Part shown: piece after piece, positions 3,822-10,113 of the stretch | How the letters are laid out: every line of letters begins with the position of its first letter | How positions within the stretch are numbered: the stretch's first letter is position 1 | IMG/VR virus record: IMGVR_UViG_3300047483_000831 | Span: 1-27,166 of that record | Reading direction: 5' to 3' (one strand) | Length of the DNA: 27,166 nt | Origin: a virus | Notes under the pieces: generated by a model | The model's input: the letters and a program-made list of their open reading frames with translations, nothing else | Database searches by the model: none | Told to the model about the DNA's origin: nothing | Made by a program: the position numbers and the translations under genes

Positions 3822-4322
3822 ATGACACAAGTTCTGGTACTCAGGCCACCGGTGGCCAGTAAAATCACCACAATAAATCCCTTTGCCTATCTGAGAAGGT
3901 ATGTGAACAATGGATCACAGGAACCCAAGAAGACCAAAAAGAAAAGACCACAGGGTTATCGCTATACCTATTTTGAAGCTGACACCTACTGGGCAGCACT
4001 GGGATTTCTGGGCGACAGGTGCCCAGTGATACCCGACATAGACTCGGATATTGTCATAGGTCGCTATTTCAGTCAGCACATGTGGTTTATCTGGTTAAAA
4101 GAACCCGGTGATGATATCATGAAGTTAATGTCAATTGCTGACACTTTACAGGCAGATCTACTATACATAAATGAAAATCGTGTTTGTGAGGCTGATCTAC
4201 CGCCTTTCGTGGATCTTCATGATGCTGAACAACTCATGGGCTGGCGAGACCAACCTATTCAGGTCGACCTCACTGATGAACTCAGTGATGAATCGTCAGA
4301 TGTTGACAATTTTTATAGTTAA
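3822..4322 (+). CDS. Hypothetical protein, last gene of the tail operon
   Basis: The product is 166 aa, with GGAGA before the ATG. The N-terminal third is basic (EPKKTKKKRPQGYRYTYF around residues 34-52). The middle is aromatic (YWAALGFLG, MWFIWLKEPGDD), and the end is acidic with a serine/aspartate tail. I do not recognise a family and see no signal peptide or membrane segment. Its place at the end of the tail operon suggests a minor tail or host-interaction protein. Its last codons contain the -35 and -10 boxes of the next transcription unit (4303-4330), so its 3' end doubles as a promoter. Confidence 0.75.
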   Translation: MTQVLVLRPPVASKITTINPFAYLRRYVNNGSQEPKKTKKKRPQGYRYTYFEADTYWAALGFLGDRCPVIPDIDSDIVIGRYFSQHMWFIWLKEPGDDIMKLMSIADTLQADLLYINENRVCEADLPPFVDLHDAEQLMGWRDQPIQVDLTDELSDESSDVDNFYS

Positions 4323-4330
4323 GCTATAAT
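4303..4330 (+). promoter_or_regulatory. Sigma70 promoter P1 (TTGACA-16-TATAAT)
   Basis: TTGACA at 4303-4308 and TATAAT at 4325-4330 are both perfect consensus boxes, separated by 16 bases. The -10 context AGCTATAATAA is identical to that of the promoter at 4570-4598. It lies at the very end of the preceding gene and faces a region without a plus-strand gene, so the expected transcript starts near 4337 and meets the terminator at 4534-4571. Confidence 0.8.
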
Positions 4331-4336
4331 AAATAC

Positions 4337-4571
4337 TATTGTCGCAAGACCCAATTGCTGACTTCGGTCAGAGCAGGTATCAGAACTTATTTGTGTTGCA
4401 TGTTTATAGCCATGATTACTAAATTTAAGATCTAAAAATTCTTCAAAAGATGTATTTTTACTCCTGTAACTGGTCCCTGGACCCTTTATAGCCCATACTG
4501 ATACCATAACTGGCTCCGGCCCGTTATATTCTCAAAGACCTACCCGGCCCAGTGCCGGGTATCGTCTTTTT
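4337..4571 (+). ncRNA. Candidate phage small RNA (about 235 nt)
   Basis: The unit runs from a consensus promoter to a strong intrinsic terminator and has no convincing plus-strand gene. The longest notable start, ATG near 4410, gives 11 codons and lacks a ribosome site. Near its 5' end is a hairpin CTGAC-TTCG-GTCAG (4358-4371), a very stable UUCG tetraloop. A GGTC/GACC pair lies around 4480-4492. I do not recognise a known RNA family. It could be a regulatory RNA, an antisense RNA or an RNA decoy. A 62-codon frame on the opposite strand (4507 to 4319) exists but is considered less likely. Confidence 0.5.
4534..4571 (+). terminator. Intrinsic terminator after the tail operon and small RNA unit
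   Basis: The core stem TACCCGGC/GCCGGGTA (4541-4548 with 4554-4561, loop CCAGT) is extended by AAAGAC/GTCTTT across a small internal loop and followed by a run of T to 4571. It would stop both tail-operon read-through and the P1 transcript. The last T of its tract is the first base of the next promoter's -35 box. Confidence 0.9.
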
Positions 4572-4598
4572 GACAATAAATCCTGTTTCAGCTATAAT
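4570..4598 (+). promoter_or_regulatory. Sigma70 promoter P2 (TTGACA-17-TATAAT)
   Basis: TTGACA at 4570-4575 and TATAAT at 4593-4598 are perfect consensus boxes with the ideal 17-base spacing. It begins at the end of the terminator and drives the lipoprotein gene at 4628. An 8-bp inverted repeat, TCCTGTTT at 4581-4588 and AAACAGGA at 4613-4620, brackets the -10 box and start point with centres 32 bp apart (three helical turns), which could be an operator. The right arm also covers the ribosome site. Confidence 0.85.
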
Positions 4599-4627
4599 AA
4601 GATATCGTAAACAAACAGGAGTAAGCA

Positions 4628-4795
4628 ATGCGATTCCAGACCCTCATTCTAGCACTATTATCGTCAGCATTCGTTGTAGGCTGTGGCACCACCAGACCCA
4701 CCGGCACCATTGGTGTTAATGAATTCAGCCAAGCTGCACGAATGGCCGGTTCCAGCCCGATCAGACTGGAGTTATCTGTAGTGTTGTTAGTATAA
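4628..4795 (+). pseudogene. Lipoprotein gene, 5' part, cut by insertion
   Basis: The ATG follows AGGAG. The first 19 residues form a lipoprotein signal: basic start, hydrophobic core LILALLSSAF and lipobox VVGC with Cys19. The native sequence runs on to SSPIR (about residue 46), after which the reading frame enters inserted DNA and stops after nine foreign residues (55 aa in all). The homologous remainder lies at 6324-6569. The ancestral product was probably about 97 aa. With its own strong promoter beside the tail genes it could be a superinfection-exclusion lipoprotein, comparable in setting to T5 Llp, or an Rz1-like outer spanin. The short form still has an intact signal and could be made and lipidated. 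Confidence 0.7.
4673..4764 (+). repeat. 92-bp imperfect direct repeat, left copy
   Basis: Bases 4673-4764 align without gaps to 6324-6415. The first 35 bases are identical, and most differences are clustered in one stretch of about 28 bases in the middle-right part. Both copies encode the lipobox-to-SSPIR section of the lipoprotein. They border a block of 1,559 bases carrying the methyltransferase-like gene. Confidence 0.9.
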
Positions 4796-4797
4796 AG

Positions 4798-4827
4798 AAA
4801 AAAATTGCCCCTGTCAAGGAGCAATTT
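4798..4827 (-). terminator. Intrinsic terminator of the methyltransferase unit
   Basis: Read on the minus strand, AAATTGCTCC pairs with GGGGCAATTT around a six-base loop, and the second arm runs into seven T (plus-strand A run 4798-4804). The arms are plus-strand 4802-4811 and 4818-4827. It sits directly after the stop codon that closes the alternative reading frame of the methyltransferase gene (4826-4828), as expected for the true gene end. Confidence 0.85.
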
Positions 4828-4951
4828 ATTCAAAGTCGAAAAGATTGTTGAGCAGTATCTCTCGTTCTTTTGCCCGAACTTCATCGTCGTAGGGCGGACT
4901 ACCATCAAACCGATAGTTATTAACAACTGGACTCTCTGATTTAGTAACGCC
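4826..4951 (-). pseudogene. Out-of-frame C-terminal continuation of the methyltransferase
   Basis: On the minus strand, a frame shifted by one base from the methyltransferase reads GVTKSESPVVNNYRFDG, then SPPYDDEVRAKEREILLNN and LFDFE, and ends at a TAA at 4826-4828 touching the terminator stem. The charged helix and acidic end look like genuine protein. The current methyltransferase frame stops early at 4941 with a short basic end. The switch point is probably the T5 run at 4952-4956 (A5 on the coding strand). This indicates a frameshift mutation or a homopolymer sequencing error. Confidence 0.6.
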
Positions 4952-6080
4952 TTTTTCCAGAAGATTTTGTAAAGGTGTCGCCTAATGAATCAGCACATAC
5001 AATATTTGGTGAAGAGCAATCCGTTCTTTTTATTGCGGCATCAACATTAGCCTGAGTTAGGTCTATTCCGTATATATTCGAAACATCAACACCTTTATTT
5101 TTAATACCAACCAAGAATTGCCCGTCGCCACACATAGAATCAATAAAAGTCTTATTTGTTGTAAATGCTGTATTATCAAATTGCTCTAATGTGTCTAACA
5201 CATAATTCACAAGACTGGTTGGAGTAAACACTTCTCCTAATGCTTTTACTCGGTCTCTATCTTCAGAAATATCGTTATCGAACTTAGCAGGAGGCAAAAG
5301 ATCTGGATCAGTTATTCTCCATTCCCTGGGAATTTCTAATCCTGTTTCAATTTGATTTAAATCAAACTTACGCACATTCCTTAAACCAAATGCGTGACCT
5401 TTAAACTTCATCCGTTTGACATACTCTGCGTAAACTGGATTCTTTTCAACAAACAATTTTAATTTGTCTGCTTCTTCTTTGGTTGCTGTAGGAATGTAAC
5501 AGATTGTTCCACCATAGACCGGCTCGTTAGTTACGGTATAACTCTTTTTACTTTCCATAACATAGAAAGCAAATTTCCATCCTGAATCAATTTCTTTGTC
5601 TGTGTAATCGTAGGCGACAGAGTTTCTTCCTTTGCCTGGAAGTTGTCTAACAACTTGATTAGGTTTTCCTGTGCCAAAGAACTTATTCATTCCGTTGTTG
5701 GAACCGCTGTAATAAACAAATGGAAAACAGTCAGCAGGATCAGGACTATAAATCTTAGCCGCTAAACCACCTAAAATTTTAGGAGGGCTCGTCCTTGGCT
5801 TTTTACTAACAGAGAAGAAGCAAGTGTTATAAGGCCAAACATCAATATTGTCCATTAAGTGAATAAAGTCAACTTGATAGTCTTTGAAGTATCCAGAAAC
5901 TAAATCCGGGATAATGCCCTTTAAGGTAATGTTGACAAGTGTGCCTTTGTCTTTAAGACGACGGTTGAAATCGTTCCTTGTTGCTGTTTTGTATAAAGTA
6001 GTATTTCCACCCGTGCCGGCAACATTGTTTTCTTCGGCAATGTTAAAGGCAGGGTTGCTAATGCAGTAATCAAACTCCAT
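4941..6080 (-). CDS. Adenine-type DNA methyltransferase-like protein, permuted motif order, 3' frameshift
   Basis: The product is 379 aa and starts at an ATG after AAAGGA. Motif IV-like NPAF is at residues 9-12, almost at the N-terminus. A long central region (about 90-265) would be the target-recognition part. GEVFTP (282-287, motif X-like), IDSMCGDGQF (313-322, motif I, the AdoMet site), IYGID (336-340, motif II) and VCADSL (361-366, motif III) come last. The order IV, recognition, X, I-III is that of beta-class amino-methyltransferases. The catalytic tetrapeptide is NPAF where NPPY/NPPF is usual, so activity is uncertain. The frame breaks near codon 366-374; see the continuation at 4826-4951. 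The gene opposes all its neighbours, looks more AT-rich and lacks their heavy use of CAGT/CCAG words, so it appears acquired. It might protect phage DNA from host restriction. Confidence 0.72.
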   Translation of the reverse strand: MEFDYCISNPAFNIAEENNVAGTGGNTTLYKTATRNDFNRRLKDKGTLVNITLKGIIPDLVSGYFKDYQVDFIHLMDNIDVWPYNTCFFSVSKKPRTSPPKILGGLAAKIYSPDPADCFPFVYYSGSNNGMNKFFGTGKPNQVVRQLPGKGRNSVAYDYTDKEIDSGWKFAFYVMESKKSYTVTNEPVYGGTICYIPTATKEEADKLKLFVEKNPVYAEYVKRMKFKGHAFGLRNVRKFDLNQIETGLEIPREWRITDPDLLPPAKFDNDISEDRDRVKALGEVFTPTSLVNYVLDTLEQFDNTAFTTNKTFIDSMCGDGQFLVGIKNKGVDVSNIYGIDLTQANVDAAIKRTDCSSPNIVCADSLGDTFTKSSGKRRY

Positions 6081-6330
6081 TTACTATTCCTTTAACTTGC
6101 TCCGGGGTCACAAGATATTTATCTTTAAAAGAAGTGTAAAACTCTTTTTCAGTTGTTGGGTTGAAGTTCCAACCTAACTTGTCTTGATATTCACCTGTTA
6201 GATTTTTAAGCAATCGGCTAATTTTTTGATCGTTGGTTAATTTGGAAATAACACCCGATCCTTGGCTACTTACAAAAGCACTCTTGCCCGAAGCATGAGC
6301 ACGATTTATAATTTCGTCAATGAGTTGTAG
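6070..6330 (-). pseudogene. 5'-truncated ORF upstream of the methyltransferase
   Basis: On the minus strand the frame reads about 86 residues, including INRAHASGKSAFVSSQ and LLKNLTGEYQDKLGW, and ends with a TGA that overlaps the methyltransferase start (ATGGAGTTTGA, an 11-base overlap typical of translational coupling). It has no convincing start before the insertion edge at 6324, where the frame runs into lipoprotein DNA. It is therefore the C-terminal end of a partner protein whose start, with any promoter, was lost. I do not recognise the family; a controller, specificity or endonuclease partner is possible but unproven. Confidence 0.6.
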
Positions 6331-6415
6331 GCTGTGGCACCACCAGACCCACCGGCACTATTGGTGTTAATGAATTTGCCCGGGCCAGTCAGATGGCCAG
6401 TTCCAGCCCGATCAG
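6324..6415 (+). repeat. 92-bp imperfect direct repeat, right copy
   Basis: This is the partner of 4673-4764, equal in length with no gaps. The divergence between copies is too large for a fresh target-site duplication. It fits recombination between related phages or an old gene duplication that hosted the insertion. Confidence 0.9.
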
Positions 6416-6569
6416 GTCATGTCCAGAATGCCTGCCTGATGGAGTCAGTGCCCGGGATGTTCGTCGCTGGCAGATCGAGCGGAGAGCAGAAAGCCGTTAT
6501 GAAAGCCGAGTGAGAATCCACGAAGCCATTCAGAGCCGACCCCGGGGTCAGTTTATGAATCGTCGCTGA
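6324..6569 (+). pseudogene. Lipoprotein gene, 3' part after the insertion
   Basis: The frame opens with VVGCGTTRPTGTIGVNEF, the same lipobox region as residues 16-33 of the gene at 4628, and continues for 81 residues to a TGA. The mature part has a CPEC pair and a long arginine-rich helical segment (RRWQIERRAESRYESR), ending QFMNRR. It has no start codon or signal core of its own, so it is the displaced remainder of the lipoprotein. The CxxC and basic helix are characters of the ancestral full-length protein that the current short form at 4628 lacks. Confidence 0.7.
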
Positions 6570-6647
6570 TGATAGCTCAAGATCGCACGAAAACAGCCGA
6601 CAAGAGATTTCGTTTTAAAACTAATACCCAGGCTATCCCTAGAGATA

Positions 6648-6711
6648 AAAATCGCAAAAAAACACCCATTTCTGCCCAGATATCGACTGGTCTGTTAAAT
6701 AACTGTATAAT
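6648..6711 (+). promoter_or_regulatory. Early promoter PE1 with shared upstream element and dyad
   Basis: TCGACT (6683-6688) and TATAAT (6706-6711) are 17 bases apart. The 64 bases 6648-6711 match 8056-8119 without gaps at all but about five positions, including an A7 tract, the element TTTCTGCCCAGATATCGAC and the spacer dyad. The dyad here is CTGTTAAATAACTG (6692-6705), with inner GTTA-AA-TAAC perfect. A repressor or activator site between -35 and -10 is likely. It drives the 368-aa gene. Confidence 0.72.
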
Positions 6712-6735
6712 TGATTTTATCACAGGAGTAATCAT

Positions 6736-7842
6736 ATGGCCCAACCATATCAACCTAATTTCACTGATCCCAGAGTTGTCCGACGAATTCGTCGAGCACT
6801 AGGCTGGGCGGCTTCCTGCATGGAGCCTGATCGAACTCGGCACTGGCGCAGTACTGAAATTGATCGGTGGTGCGGTCAGCAACAGAACGAGCTCGCAGCA
6901 TATATTCGTGGCAGTCTGCTAATTCCCACAGAATCACCGCATAAGAACCTGGCTACCGGTTATCGATTAAATGCCAGTGGATATCTGAGGCTGGCCGAGG
7001 CCATTGGCCAGCCTCAGACTCAACGATTGTCAATCGACTGGGCACTTACGGAATTTCATGACGAACTCCGGACAGGGCAGTTCAGTTATCGACTTCAGAG
7101 TGATCGCCACTGGCATCCACTACAAAATATGCGCCGTGCTGTTAAAGCACAAGTATTCCAGCAGACTGATTACAGATACCAATATGATATCCAATGCGCA
7201 GCTCAGACTCTGCTACTTCAATACAGCCAGCAGATCCCTGAACAGTTAGATCCCGAGCGGCTGGTGGGTCCCAGGTGGCACCGACGACCACTATGGCTTC
7301 AGGGACCCATGGATCTGTGGTTGCCTAATGTCCTAGCCTATATCGGTGACAGGAACCAAATTCGCCAGGAACTCAGTCGACGAATTGGTATCAGTATTGA
7401 TCAGGCCAAACAGATCATCACAGCTCTATTTGCCGGGGCTCACATATCCGTTCACCACCGTAGTGCTATCAGTAGAATTCTCGATGGCCGACGGGATCAA
7501 ATCCAGGCTCTGAAAACAGACCCGTTTATTGCTCCACTAAAATCTGAAATCAGAACCATCTGGGAATACATCAAACCCACCATGAGCCGCGGTACTCGAA
7601 CCAATCGGCTGGGCAGAACTCGCCTAGTCCCCATCACCAGTAGAGAGCGATGGAGATTATATTTCCAATTGGAACGACAGGTATTAGCAGCCATCAGTGA
7701 TTATCTGACCAGTACTGGCAACCAGTTCTTTACTGAACATGATGGTTGGGTATGTCGACATCCGGTCAATCAATCAGATCTAAAGACTCATGTTCGGCAG
7801 GTTACTGGTTTTCAGATACAATTGGATTTATGTATTTTGTAA
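6736..7842 (+). CDS. Putative replication protein with PolA/T7-RNAP-like palm motifs
   Basis: The product is 368 aa, the largest gene of the presumed early region, with AGGAG before the ATG. No family is certain. Three features recall single-subunit polymerases. RYQYDIQCAAQTLLLQ (147-162) resembles motif A with D151. AKQIITALFAGA (224-235), with K225 nine residues before G234, recalls the K-x7-YG fingers helix, with alanine in place of tyrosine. TEHDGWVC (333-340) resembles motif C with H335-D336. The D151-D336 distance of 185 residues is close to that in E. coli Pol I (705-882). The helix before motif C (LYFQLERQVLAAI) and the closing LKTHVRQVTGFQIQLD also fit that layout. There is no exonuclease domain. 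A 20-bp iteron array follows directly, so a rep-type initiator or replicase is a natural reading. It may instead be an RNA polymerase or an unrelated fold. Confidence 0.5.
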   Translation: MAQPYQPNFTDPRVVRRIRRALGWAASCMEPDRTRHWRSTEIDRWCGQQQNELAAYIRGSLLIPTESPHKNLATGYRLNASGYLRLAEAIGQPQTQRLSIDWALTEFHDELRTGQFSYRLQSDRHWHPLQNMRRAVKAQVFQQTDYRYQYDIQCAAQTLLLQYSQQIPEQLDPERLVGPRWHRRPLWLQGPMDLWLPNVLAYIGDRNQIRQELSRRIGISIDQAKQIITALFAGAHISVHHRSAISRILDGRRDQIQALKTDPFIAPLKSEIRTIWEYIKPTMSRGTRTNRLGRTRLVPITSRERWRLYFQLERQVLAAISDYLTSTGNQFFTEHDGWVCRHPVNQSDLKTHVRQVTGFQIQLDLCIL

Positions 7843-7850
7843 TTGATCCT

Positions 7851-7923
7851 GGCGATGATATCTCCATCAAGGCGATGATGTTTCCATCAAGGCGATGATA
7901 TCTCCATCAAGGCGATGATGTTT
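7851..7923 (+). repeat. 20-bp iteron array, candidate replication origin
   Basis: Three complete 20-bp units start at 7851, 7871 and 7891, and a fourth partial one runs 7911-7923. Units 1 and 3 contain GGCGATGATATCTCC, and units 2 and 4 share GGCGATGATGTTT, giving an ABAB order. All complete units end CCATCAA. Each has a GATG/CATC inverted pair. The array starts eight bases after the stop of the 368-aa gene and is followed by AT-rich DNA, the arrangement of many rep-gene/iteron origins. Confidence 0.7.
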
Positions 7924-8055
7924 AATTCGAGTTGAGTTATTTGATTCATGATATATTTGATATATTACCGCCCTAGACCCCCTTGCATATTACTTCTTTT
8001 TGACACACAGACATTTGACTGCTAGATGTATGCATATTACTTCTTTCTGAATCAG
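7924..8055. other. AT-rich stretch with direct repeats, candidate unwinding region
   Basis: After the iterons the DNA becomes AT-rich and holds a tandem TGATATATT pair (7949-7966) and a 20-base direct repeat, TGCATATTACTTCTTTyTGA, at 7984-8003 and 8031-8050. There is no gene in the 299 bases between 7842 and 8142. A consensus TTGACA at 8000-8005 lacks a good -10 partner. The setting fits a duplex-unwinding element beside the iterons, but this is inference. Confidence 0.45.
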
Positions 8056-8119
8056 AAAATCGCAAAAAAACACCCGTTTCTGCCCAGATATCGACAGCTC
8101 TGTTAAATAACAGTACAAT
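8056..8119 (+). promoter_or_regulatory. Early promoter PE2, duplicate of PE1, with perfect dyad
   Basis: TCGACA (8091-8096) and TACAAT (8114-8119) are 17 bases apart. The spacer contains the perfect 14-bp dyad CTGTTA-AA-TAACAG (8100-8113), which abuts the -10 box. The upstream 36 bases match those of PE1. It serves the 8142-9330 gene trio. The shared block suggests that one regulator controls both units. Confidence 0.75.
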
Positions 8120-8141
8120 AATATTATTACAGGAGAAAAAT

Positions 8142-8630
8142 ATGATCAGCGAATCATTCGACCGTTTATATCAGAAATATCAGCAACTGCCCAACCGATC
8201 AGCCAGAGATCAGTGGATCAAACAACTGATAGCAGCCGCCTACATCATGACGGTTAACACACATAATACCCGAGCCCGAAGTTGTGTACTAGCCATCGGC
8301 AATCGCCACCGCCAGAGCGAATACAAGCGCATGAGTCGGCGAAACATCCGCACTCTCTGGCAGATTGCTCTCTATCCCAGCAGTCAGGACACCATCCTAA
8401 TAGAACATTTCCTGCGACGAGTCCAGGCTGGTACCGCAGCCAGTTTGTTCCAGAAACCTGCCCAGAAACCCAGGAGAACAACCCAGAAGAGCCTGAAAAC
8501 ACCCGGGCAATACACAAGTACTCCCACAATCACTGACAGCCTAGAAGAGCAACCACCAGCCAACTGGCAGATGCCAGTACACGAGCATCAGCCAGTGGTG
8601 ATCCATCATCGTCCCCGGAGAAAAATATGA
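8142..8630 (+). CDS. Hypothetical basic early protein
   Basis: The product is 162 aa and begins after AGGAGA. The first 105 residues are helix-like and rich in arginine (RDQWIKQL, NRHRQSEYKRMSRRNIRTLWQI). The remainder is a proline-, threonine- and glutamine-rich tail ending HHRPRRKI. The high positive charge suggests nucleic-acid binding, but there is no recognisable helix-turn-helix or zinc site. It is first in the PE2 unit and overlaps the next gene by ATGA, so it is an early gene, perhaps a DNA-binding or takeover protein. The family is unknown. Confidence 0.72.
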   Translation: MISESFDRLYQKYQQLPNRSARDQWIKQLIAAAYIMTVNTHNTRARSCVLAIGNRHRQSEYKRMSRRNIRTLWQIALYPSSQDTILIEHFLRRVQAGTAASLFQKPAQKPRRTTQKSLKTPGQYTSTPTITDSLEEQPPANWQMPVHEHQPVVIHHRPRRKI

Positions 8631-8833
8631 AACAGTTAGACATGATCTATAATTCAGCCACTGGCCATCTGGAAATCATCGATGGTGACCAGAGAATTGG
8701 TTATGTGCCCACACAGCACATGAGATACCAGCTGGACCCCGGCGCCGGCACATTCGACCTGACCTTAAGAACACCAGTGTTGTGTCACTCTGCTGTCTCC
8801 AGAAACATAACCAGACAATTACTAGGAGATTAA
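8627..8833 (+). CDS. Hypothetical small early protein
   Basis: The product is 68 aa. Its ATG overlaps the previous stop (ATGA), with GGAGA just upstream. The sequence looks like a small beta-rich domain (HLEIIDGDQRIGYVPTQH, then FDLTLRTPV). It has one cysteine and no membrane segment. There is no family match I can name. The tight packing in the early unit supports a real gene. Confidence 0.65.
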   Translation: MKQLDMIYNSATGHLEIIDGDQRIGYVPTQHMRYQLDPGAGTFDLTLRTPVLCHSAVSRNITRQLLGD

Positions 8834-8835
8834 TC

Positions 8836-9330
8836 ATGCGAGTCACAGCCAATCTCAGATCCAGACCCACACCACAGACCGACCGACTGGGTCGAGCACT
8901 CACTGACATCACCGGTGAACCTGTGTATACCAGATACCTAAGTATCGGTGCTGACCGTAAATTTCAGATACAGCAGCACATGAGACTCTATCTGGAACCC
9001 CTGGCCCGAGCCATGAGAGAAATGGGCATCGATGACTTTGCCAATGGAGCCGGTATCGATCTCCAGACTAGTCGTCAGATCGATCATGAACCCAGAAGTT
9101 ATACCTGGCTGGACAGATTCGAGATGGTCTATGAACGACTGACTCAGCTGGCACATCAGGATCTCACACAGGGTATCATTGATCAGTACAACAGCATCAC
9201 CGGTGAATTCTATCGCAACATGGGGGCACCAGCCGATCAGCTTGAGCATATTCGTATACAAGTAGAGCCCTGGAATCAGGGCCGAGTGAGAAGTTACCTG
9301 AATCCCGATTTATTTGATACCAGATCCTGA
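8836..9330 (+). CDS. Hypothetical early protein
   Basis: The product is 164 aa from the ATG at 8836, chosen because AGGAG lies seven bases upstream. An in-frame ATG at 8782 would overlap the previous gene and has no ribosome site. The N-terminus is basic (MRVTANLRSRPTPQTDRLGR), followed by a helical acidic/aromatic body (YTWLDRFEMVYERLTQLAHQ) and a C-terminus ending NPDLFDTRS. I recognise no domain. It is the last gene of the PE2 unit, before the terminator at 9406-9433. Confidence 0.72.
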   Translation: MRVTANLRSRPTPQTDRLGRALTDITGEPVYTRYLSIGADRKFQIQQHMRLYLEPLARAMREMGIDDFANGAGIDLQTSRQIDHEPRSYTWLDRFEMVYERLTQLAHQDLTQGIIDQYNSITGEFYRNMGAPADQLEHIRIQVEPWNQGRVRSYLNPDLFDTRS

Positions 9331-9768: not shown

Positions 9769-10113
9769 ATGGCAGCCGGAAGATATAATATCATCATTGA
9801 ACAGGGAGCCAGCTTCAGTAAAAGTCTTAGTCTCACCGATTCAGATAGCCAGCCCTGGGACCTATCAGGCTACAGCCAGGTTCGAGGACAAATTCGTCGT
9901 CACTATAATTCAGATTCAGTGGCCGCCACATTCGTTATCACTATCAATGGTGATGGCACAGCTGGAACCATCAGCTGGGGGCTGAGTCCAGCACAAACAC
10001 AGAGCCTAGAAGCAGCTGAGCATCTATATGATATAGAATTAGTAGCCGATGATGGCGAGGTTACTAGATTATTAGAAGGCACTGCGACAGTTCGCCCCAA
10101 TATTACCAGATAA
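9769..10113 (+). CDS. Fibre-associated structural protein
   Basis: The product is 114 aa after a strong AAAGGAGA site. The pattern YNIIIEQGASFSKSLSLTD, WDLSGYSQVRGQIRRH, then LYDIELVADDGEVTRLLEGT is a beta-sandwich seen often immediately upstream of phage fibre genes, where it probably forms an attachment collar or baseplate piece. No catalytic residues are apparent. It is separated from the 683-aa fibre by only nine bases, so the two are likely assembled together. Confidence 0.72.
   Translation: MAAGRYNIIIEQGASFSKSLSLTDSDSQPWDLSGYSQVRGQIRRHYNSDSVAATFVITINGDGTAGTISWGLSPAQTQSLEAAEHLYDIELVADDGEVTRLLEGTATVRPNITR

Follow-up and report, generated by a model that had tools for sequence, protein, structure and literature searches.

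The window analyzed here, a virus record of 27,166 bases taken at its full length, carries a direct terminal repeat of 148 bases whose two copies differ at one position. Its portal and terminase proteins are 39 to 47% identical to those of Dishui Lake phage DSL-LC06 and of Pelagibacter phages such as HTVC111P. The late genes extend from about position 9769 through the record end to 4322, and early genes occupy positions 4628 to 9330. Where the two sets meet, a consensus sigma70-type promoter (TTGACA-16-TATAAT; 4303 to 4330, plus strand) matches at 12 of 12 positions with a spacer of 16, confirming a first-pass annotation of this DNA that had placed a perfect promoter at the end of the last tail gene. 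The −35 box lies inside the end of that ORF (3822 to 4322), and the −10 box lies just past its stop. About 270 nt downstream, a second perfect promoter (4570 to 4598, plus strand), which begins at the last bases of a terminator, serves a short lipoprotein-like gene (4628 to 4795, plus strand), the first gene behind it. A scan of both strands found only these two 12/12 promoters in the window; 200 dinucleotide shuffles yielded a mean of 0.015 and a maximum of 1. A longer motif, TTGACAAT..GCTATAATAA, was common to both promoters and absent from the shuffles.

A predicted noncoding RNA unit at the late/early boundary

From the positions of promoter and terminator we infer a plus-strand noncoding RNA of about 235 nt (4337 to 4571). 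No plus-strand frame is open across the whole unit, as expected from the earlier statement that about 200 bases lack a plausible plus-strand gene. The terminator (4534 to 4571, plus strand) indeed has the two parts that had been described for it: an inner hairpin, TACCCGGC-CCAGT-GCCGGGTA at 4541 to 4561, is enclosed by outer arms (AAAGAC, 4534 to 4539; GTCTTT, 4564 to 4569), and a short T tail (TCGTCTTTTT) runs to 4571. The genome had also been called packed with overlapping genes, but gaps of 655, 299, and 278 nt occur nearby.

With its terminator, the RNA folded more strongly than shuffled sequences (z of −3.1 to −3.7, the latter for 4337 to 4571); without the terminator, z was about −1.5 to −1.9. 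The excess folding is owed mainly to the terminator. Three plus-strand hairpins carry GNRA or C(UNCG)G loops, compared with 0.26 in shuffles (p of about 0.002), and no hairpin with such a loop was found on the minus strand of the unit. The UUCG-capped hairpin noticed in the first-pass annotation, CUGAC(UUCG)GUCAG at 4358 to 4371, appeared both in the predicted fold and in the stable-loop scan; it lies roughly 20 nt beyond the expected start. Two more had been overlooked: GUC(GCAA)GAC, with a GNRA loop, at 4341 to 4350, and UAAC-U-GGC(UCCG)GCC-C-GUUA, with a UNCG loop, at 4507 to 4526 (GGC(UCCG)GCC at 4512 to 4521). According to the predicted fold and its pairing probabilities, positions 4376 to 4505 form a multi-branch domain closed by a stem of GGUAUCAG (4376 to 4383) and CUGAUACC (4498 to 4505).

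No RNA family had been recognized here, and the Rfam 15 covariance models likewise gave no match for the unit at gathering score; we do not claim membership in a named family. A weak minus-strand match to snR76 (E of 0.38) was dismissed as chance, and ARAGORN found no tRNA or tmRNA in the unit. The stretch from 4303 to 4571 was matched by a single contig, identical across the compared 6.5 kb, and DNA and protein scans yielded no non-identical relative of the RNA. The unit's DNA had no match in phage records, and in plasmid records the sole hit, to 44 bases of a Pantoea gene, was weak and attributed to chance; single-protein scans with the last tail gene and the tail hub recovered the identical contig alone; and in terminase relatives, blastn hits to the unit were never better than an E of 0.03. 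A conserved protein frame in relatives, which the first-pass annotation had named as contradicting an RNA, was not seen, the sole relative found being the identical contig. Genes occupy the unit's place in L158, the closest terminase relative with its tail end present.

In DSL-LC06 (L004), positions 572 to 1290 resembled a large RNA at first sight, but their opening portion looks like a degraded relative of a small gene present in L158. There, an unannotated frame at 607 to 790 with an in-frame TGA resembles L158 ORF 3427 to 3636 (GPHxA..C..C..HIAW); a broken gene, a sequencing error, or recoding are options for the TGA.

An anti-RBS element and its predicted early-gene targets

Listing the genome-wide complements of the RNA revealed an anti-RBS element, UUACUCCUGU (4458 to 4467, plus strand), bordered by UUUUU and AA. 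Its exact complement is ACAGGAGUAA, which early genes 4628 and 6736 have as their ribosome site. On the plus strand of the genome, ACAGGAGTAA has two copies only, at 4615 to 4624 and 6722 to 6731, and both are the ribosome sites of these genes. In the predicted fold, the CUC core of the element is mostly unpaired (unpaired probability of 0.80 to 0.86 over 4461 to 4463) and its flanks are paired. A third predicted target covers the ribosome site and start of gene 8142 (8127 to 8147, plus strand), with which RNA positions 4449 to 4469 pair over 21 bases with one-base bulges. The p values for complementarity were 0.001 for gene 8142, 0.024 for the leader of gene 4628, and 0.10, not significant alone, for gene 6736.

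Among 27 gene starts, the longest complementary runs (10, 10, and 9 nt) fell on genes 4628, 6736, and 8142. For this trio, the shuffle p was 0.0005 if chosen post hoc and 0.0185 in an unbiased top-three test, and its sum was matched by no other 235-nt segment of the genome. Genes 8142 and 4628 also led by a gapped score, the start of structural gene 2164 tying with 4628. A first complementarity test with wide leaders did not favor the window's polymerase gene (see below), and RNAduplex with free loops was unspecific. The three targets carry one ribosome-site motif and are nearly a single observation. Taken alone, the window evidence for pairing with early genes is thus suggestive but not proof. 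Two 64-base regions ahead of genes 6736 and 8142 (6648 to 6711 and 8056 to 8119) are 92% identical and probably represent a promoter common to both genes, together with a site for a regulator.

Gene 6736 (6736 to 7842, plus strand) encodes a 368-aa protein without a Pfam or PHROG match. Its AlphaFold2 model, in which 15 relatives were included, reached a pLDDT of 90.5, and the best PDB match by Foldseek was T7 DNA polymerase (E of 8e-4, TM of 0.36); an earlier, poorer model had matched Bst Pol I (E of 3.5e-4). Viral structure matches included the Zamilon DNA replication protein and several phage polymerases. The product is read as a miniature family-A (PolA/TV-Pol-like) DNA polymerase, with partial overlap of the folds. 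Together with relatives from L160 to L217, it forms a family of about 350 to 420 aa that lacks a Pfam or PHROG model. Directly behind the gene, 20-base iteron-like repeats at 7846 to 7923 are a candidate replication origin. In three relatives (L163, 7271/8072; L167, 4742/5504; L165, 3518/4355), the polymerase gene ends in an exact direct repeat of 24 to 45 bases of an internal segment, and the C terminus duplicates an internal peptide; these repeats are possible recombination sites or origin repeats.

Comparable units upstream of distant polymerase operons

A scan with the polymerase returned 36 loci from viruses, along with one contig listed as part of a Legionella metagenome genome. In 11 distant loci (L162, L163, L164, L167, L168, L171, L175, L177, L198, L214, and L217), a gene-free, terminator-ended unit lies just upstream of the polymerase operon. 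The order is the same in all 11: structured region, intrinsic terminator, promoter-like −10, and the operon's first gene, some of the terminators and promoter-like sites having been judged by eye. Several units start with a long closing stem (UAGGGGC/GCCCCUA in L162; GUGUAAAGAG/CUCUUUACAC in L177), and the mean folding z of these RNAs was about −2.7. Since they have little common sequence and could not be aligned with each other or with the window's RNA, the kinship of the latter rests on position and architecture.

The window unit sits at the late/early boundary and not directly before the polymerase gene; a minus-strand methyltransferase-like cassette (4941 to 6080) intervenes. As this cassette is flanked by a 92-base repeat, the early operon of the window may once have been continuous. 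The repeat (4673 to 4764 and 6324 to 6415; 86%) belongs to the lipoprotein gene, and the cassette looks like an insertion. A similar minus-strand pair lies upstream of the polymerase gene in L161. L162 has a second promoter-to-terminator noncoding unit, at its late/early boundary (4805 to 4928), which showed no complementarity with its next gene over 4805 to 4905 (p of 0.39).

For each locus, we scored the best gapped complementarity of the RNA with its own operon leader and used swapped partners as the control. Across 15 loci, own RNA/leader pairs scored higher than swapped pairs (permutation p of 2e-5). The idea had been formed on eight relatives, so that the Fisher p of 4e-10 obtained there is not independent. 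Seven held-out loci, three with a terminator (L198, L214, and L217) and four with plain leaders (L188, L191, L165, and L166), yielded p values of 4e-5 by Fisher and 3e-4 by permutation of swapped partners; they had been viewed before scoring and were thus new to the idea but not blind. Compared with other gene starts of the same locus, the own leader ranked first in 8 of 11 cases, second in two, and fifth in one. Unit borders were set by hand in this main test. When it was repeated with fixed windows, the Fisher p was 1e-5 for the unit loci, 5 of 11 falling below 0.04; for 12 control loci that lack a unit it was 0.036, a weak value. Judged from sequence, several loci show genuine own-leader complementarity, which for the others is unproven. 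Pairing with the polymerase-operon leader was clearer in four relatives than for gene 6736 in the window, L162, L167, and L168 having the strongest complementarity: L167 pairs in two blocks, each of about 15 pairs, L168 has 11 and 10 pairs, L162 has 11 pairs and a block covering the ribosome site, and in L163 about 19 of 23 positions pair over the start.

Proposed antisense control, its alternatives, and known RNA systems

The first-pass annotation had suggested an abundant regulatory or structural RNA. The regulatory half of this suggestion gains from the promoter, the terminator, the loops, the relatives' units, and the leader complementarity, and a regulatory RNA unit in the window is likely; a structural role found no support. 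Antisense control is the best-supported function. A small RNA of about 235 nt would be made as its own unit where the late tail operon gives way to the early region, and its partly single-stranded UUACUCCUGU would pair with the ribosome-binding sites of genes 4628, 6736 (the predicted DNA polymerase), and 8142. Such pairing would lower translation of these genes, as plasmid copy-control RNAs do to a replication gene. Because the RNA has its own strong promoter and terminator and also belongs to the 3′ end of the late operon, early genes could be damped by it while infection advances. That part of the element is base-paired in the predicted fold counts against antisense action. All considered, we put a separately transcribed antisense RNA that restrains translation of early or replication genes at about an even chance for the window, just on the favorable side, and at a somewhat better one for the family; the case is moderate for the former and good for the latter. 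Comparable units that match the start of their own polymerase operon suggest, at the level of sequence, that an RNA brake like those of plasmids acts on phage replication genes. More tentatively, they may constitute a fast-changing class of phage antisense RNA, known by position and own-leader match rather than by sequence, which in uncultivated aquatic phages lies just upstream of the operon of the miniature family-A polymerase and would set the dosage of this enzyme by plasmid-type copy control; the window version would be aimed at a ribosome site common to three early genes.

The main rival is a hairpin in cis: in mRNA reading through the terminator, the upstream arm would fold onto the next gene's ribosome site and cover it, and only transcripts started at the proximal promoter would be translatable. 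T4 gene e is a described precedent for occlusion of this kind in read-through mRNA. Arm and target lie on one strand and near each other, and in L188, L191, L165, and L166 the complementary arm apparently shares a leader with its target, and neither a T-run terminator nor a second promoter was seen between the two, so that pairing could work in cis there. In the window and the 11 unit-bearing relatives, however, arm and target are separated by a terminator and also by another promoter-like site. Read-through would be rare, and a separate, trans-acting RNA is therefore the simplest reading. The window's element also matches genes 6736 and 8142, which are 2 to 4 kb off. We consider the cis hairpin unlikely; evolution may use both trans and cis forms. 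It is similarly unlikely that the region is an ordinary boundary, composed of a late operon 3′ end, a terminator, and a strong promoter, with the RNA a by-product and its complementarity chance. The anti-SD-like sequence is simple, the window's unbiased p is just 0.0185, and folding is weak once the terminator is removed, but chance fits poorly with two perfect promoters so close together (0.015 expected), with the stable-loop hairpins, and with the repetition of units with own-leader complementarity in relatives.

Two further explanations appear highly improbable. Inverted copies of a DNA site for a regulator near both promoters would give the same sequence picture as RNA pairing; the matches, however, are not shared palindromes, they hold bulges, and in most loci they cover the ribosome site or the start codon. 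The other is a small minus-strand gene (4319 to 4507, 62 aa), for which there is an open frame with an ATG, a GGAG motif six bases upstream, and a minus-strand promoter matching 11 of 12 positions at 4817 to 4789. This ORF has no family match and no homologue beyond the identical contig, ORFs of at least 50 aa number 103 in the window, and the stable loops are confined to the plus strand.

In plasmid pMV158, RNAII pairs with the repB leader and blocks translation (PMC4485353). This RNA, R1 CopA, and ColIb-P9 Inc RNA control replication as short, structured antisense RNAs with their own promoter and terminator and with a replication-gene leader as the target; the window unit resembles them, its sequence signals including its own promoter and an intrinsic terminator. 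They are transcribed from the strand opposite their target and are fully complementary to it, whereas the window's RNA would be a separate upstream unit that shares the strand of its target and is partly complementary to it (10 nt exact, about 20 nt with bulges), and its target gene is a predicted phage DNA polymerase, unlike theirs. Among phage RNAs, P22 sar blocks initiation of ant (PMC12197685). Like lambda OOP and P1/P7 c4, it acts on the phage's own mRNA, as proposed here, but the targets of all three are lysis-lysogeny regulators rather than a predicted DNA polymerase and early genes. Moreover, sar and OOP are opposite-strand RNAs, whereas the window's RNA is same-strand and has no Rfam sequence match. 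P1/P7 c4 is a phage antisense RNA acting on translation starts.

Lambda PreS affects replication via host dnaN (PMC12197685). PreS and VP882 VpdS are separate small RNAs that act on distant mRNAs, as proposed here, and at the sequence level the window offers a separate predicted transcript complementary to distant ribosome sites; they act with Hfq and partly on host mRNAs, whereas the predicted targets here are phage early genes. The lambda pR′ leader RNA (6S), which belongs to Q antitermination, likewise combines a strong promoter with a leader of about 200 nt and a terminator before further genes. It precedes late genes, whereas the window unit follows the last tail gene and is succeeded by gene 4628 with its own perfect promoter, a position other than that before a late operon.

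In the literature, we found no RNA of this kind reported near the polymerase gene of a phage. In plasmids, control of replication genes by antisense RNA is textbook knowledge, and the phage examples cited mainly govern lysogeny switches or host genes. If true, a recurrent RNA matching the start of its own polymerase operon would represent a testable dosage control for uncultivated aquatic phages, and own-leader complementarity scored against swapped pairs would be a way to find RNAs when alignment fails. A likeness to plasmid systems was seen in L162 and L168, in which the RNA has UUUGCCAAA/GUUGCCAAA and the leader has UUUGGCAAA/UUUGGCAAC. RNA and leader of both loci bear UUGCCAA/UUUGGCAA elements, which we take to resemble ColIb-type UUGGCG loops and which, by this analogy, could form loop-loop contacts as in plasmid copy-control systems.
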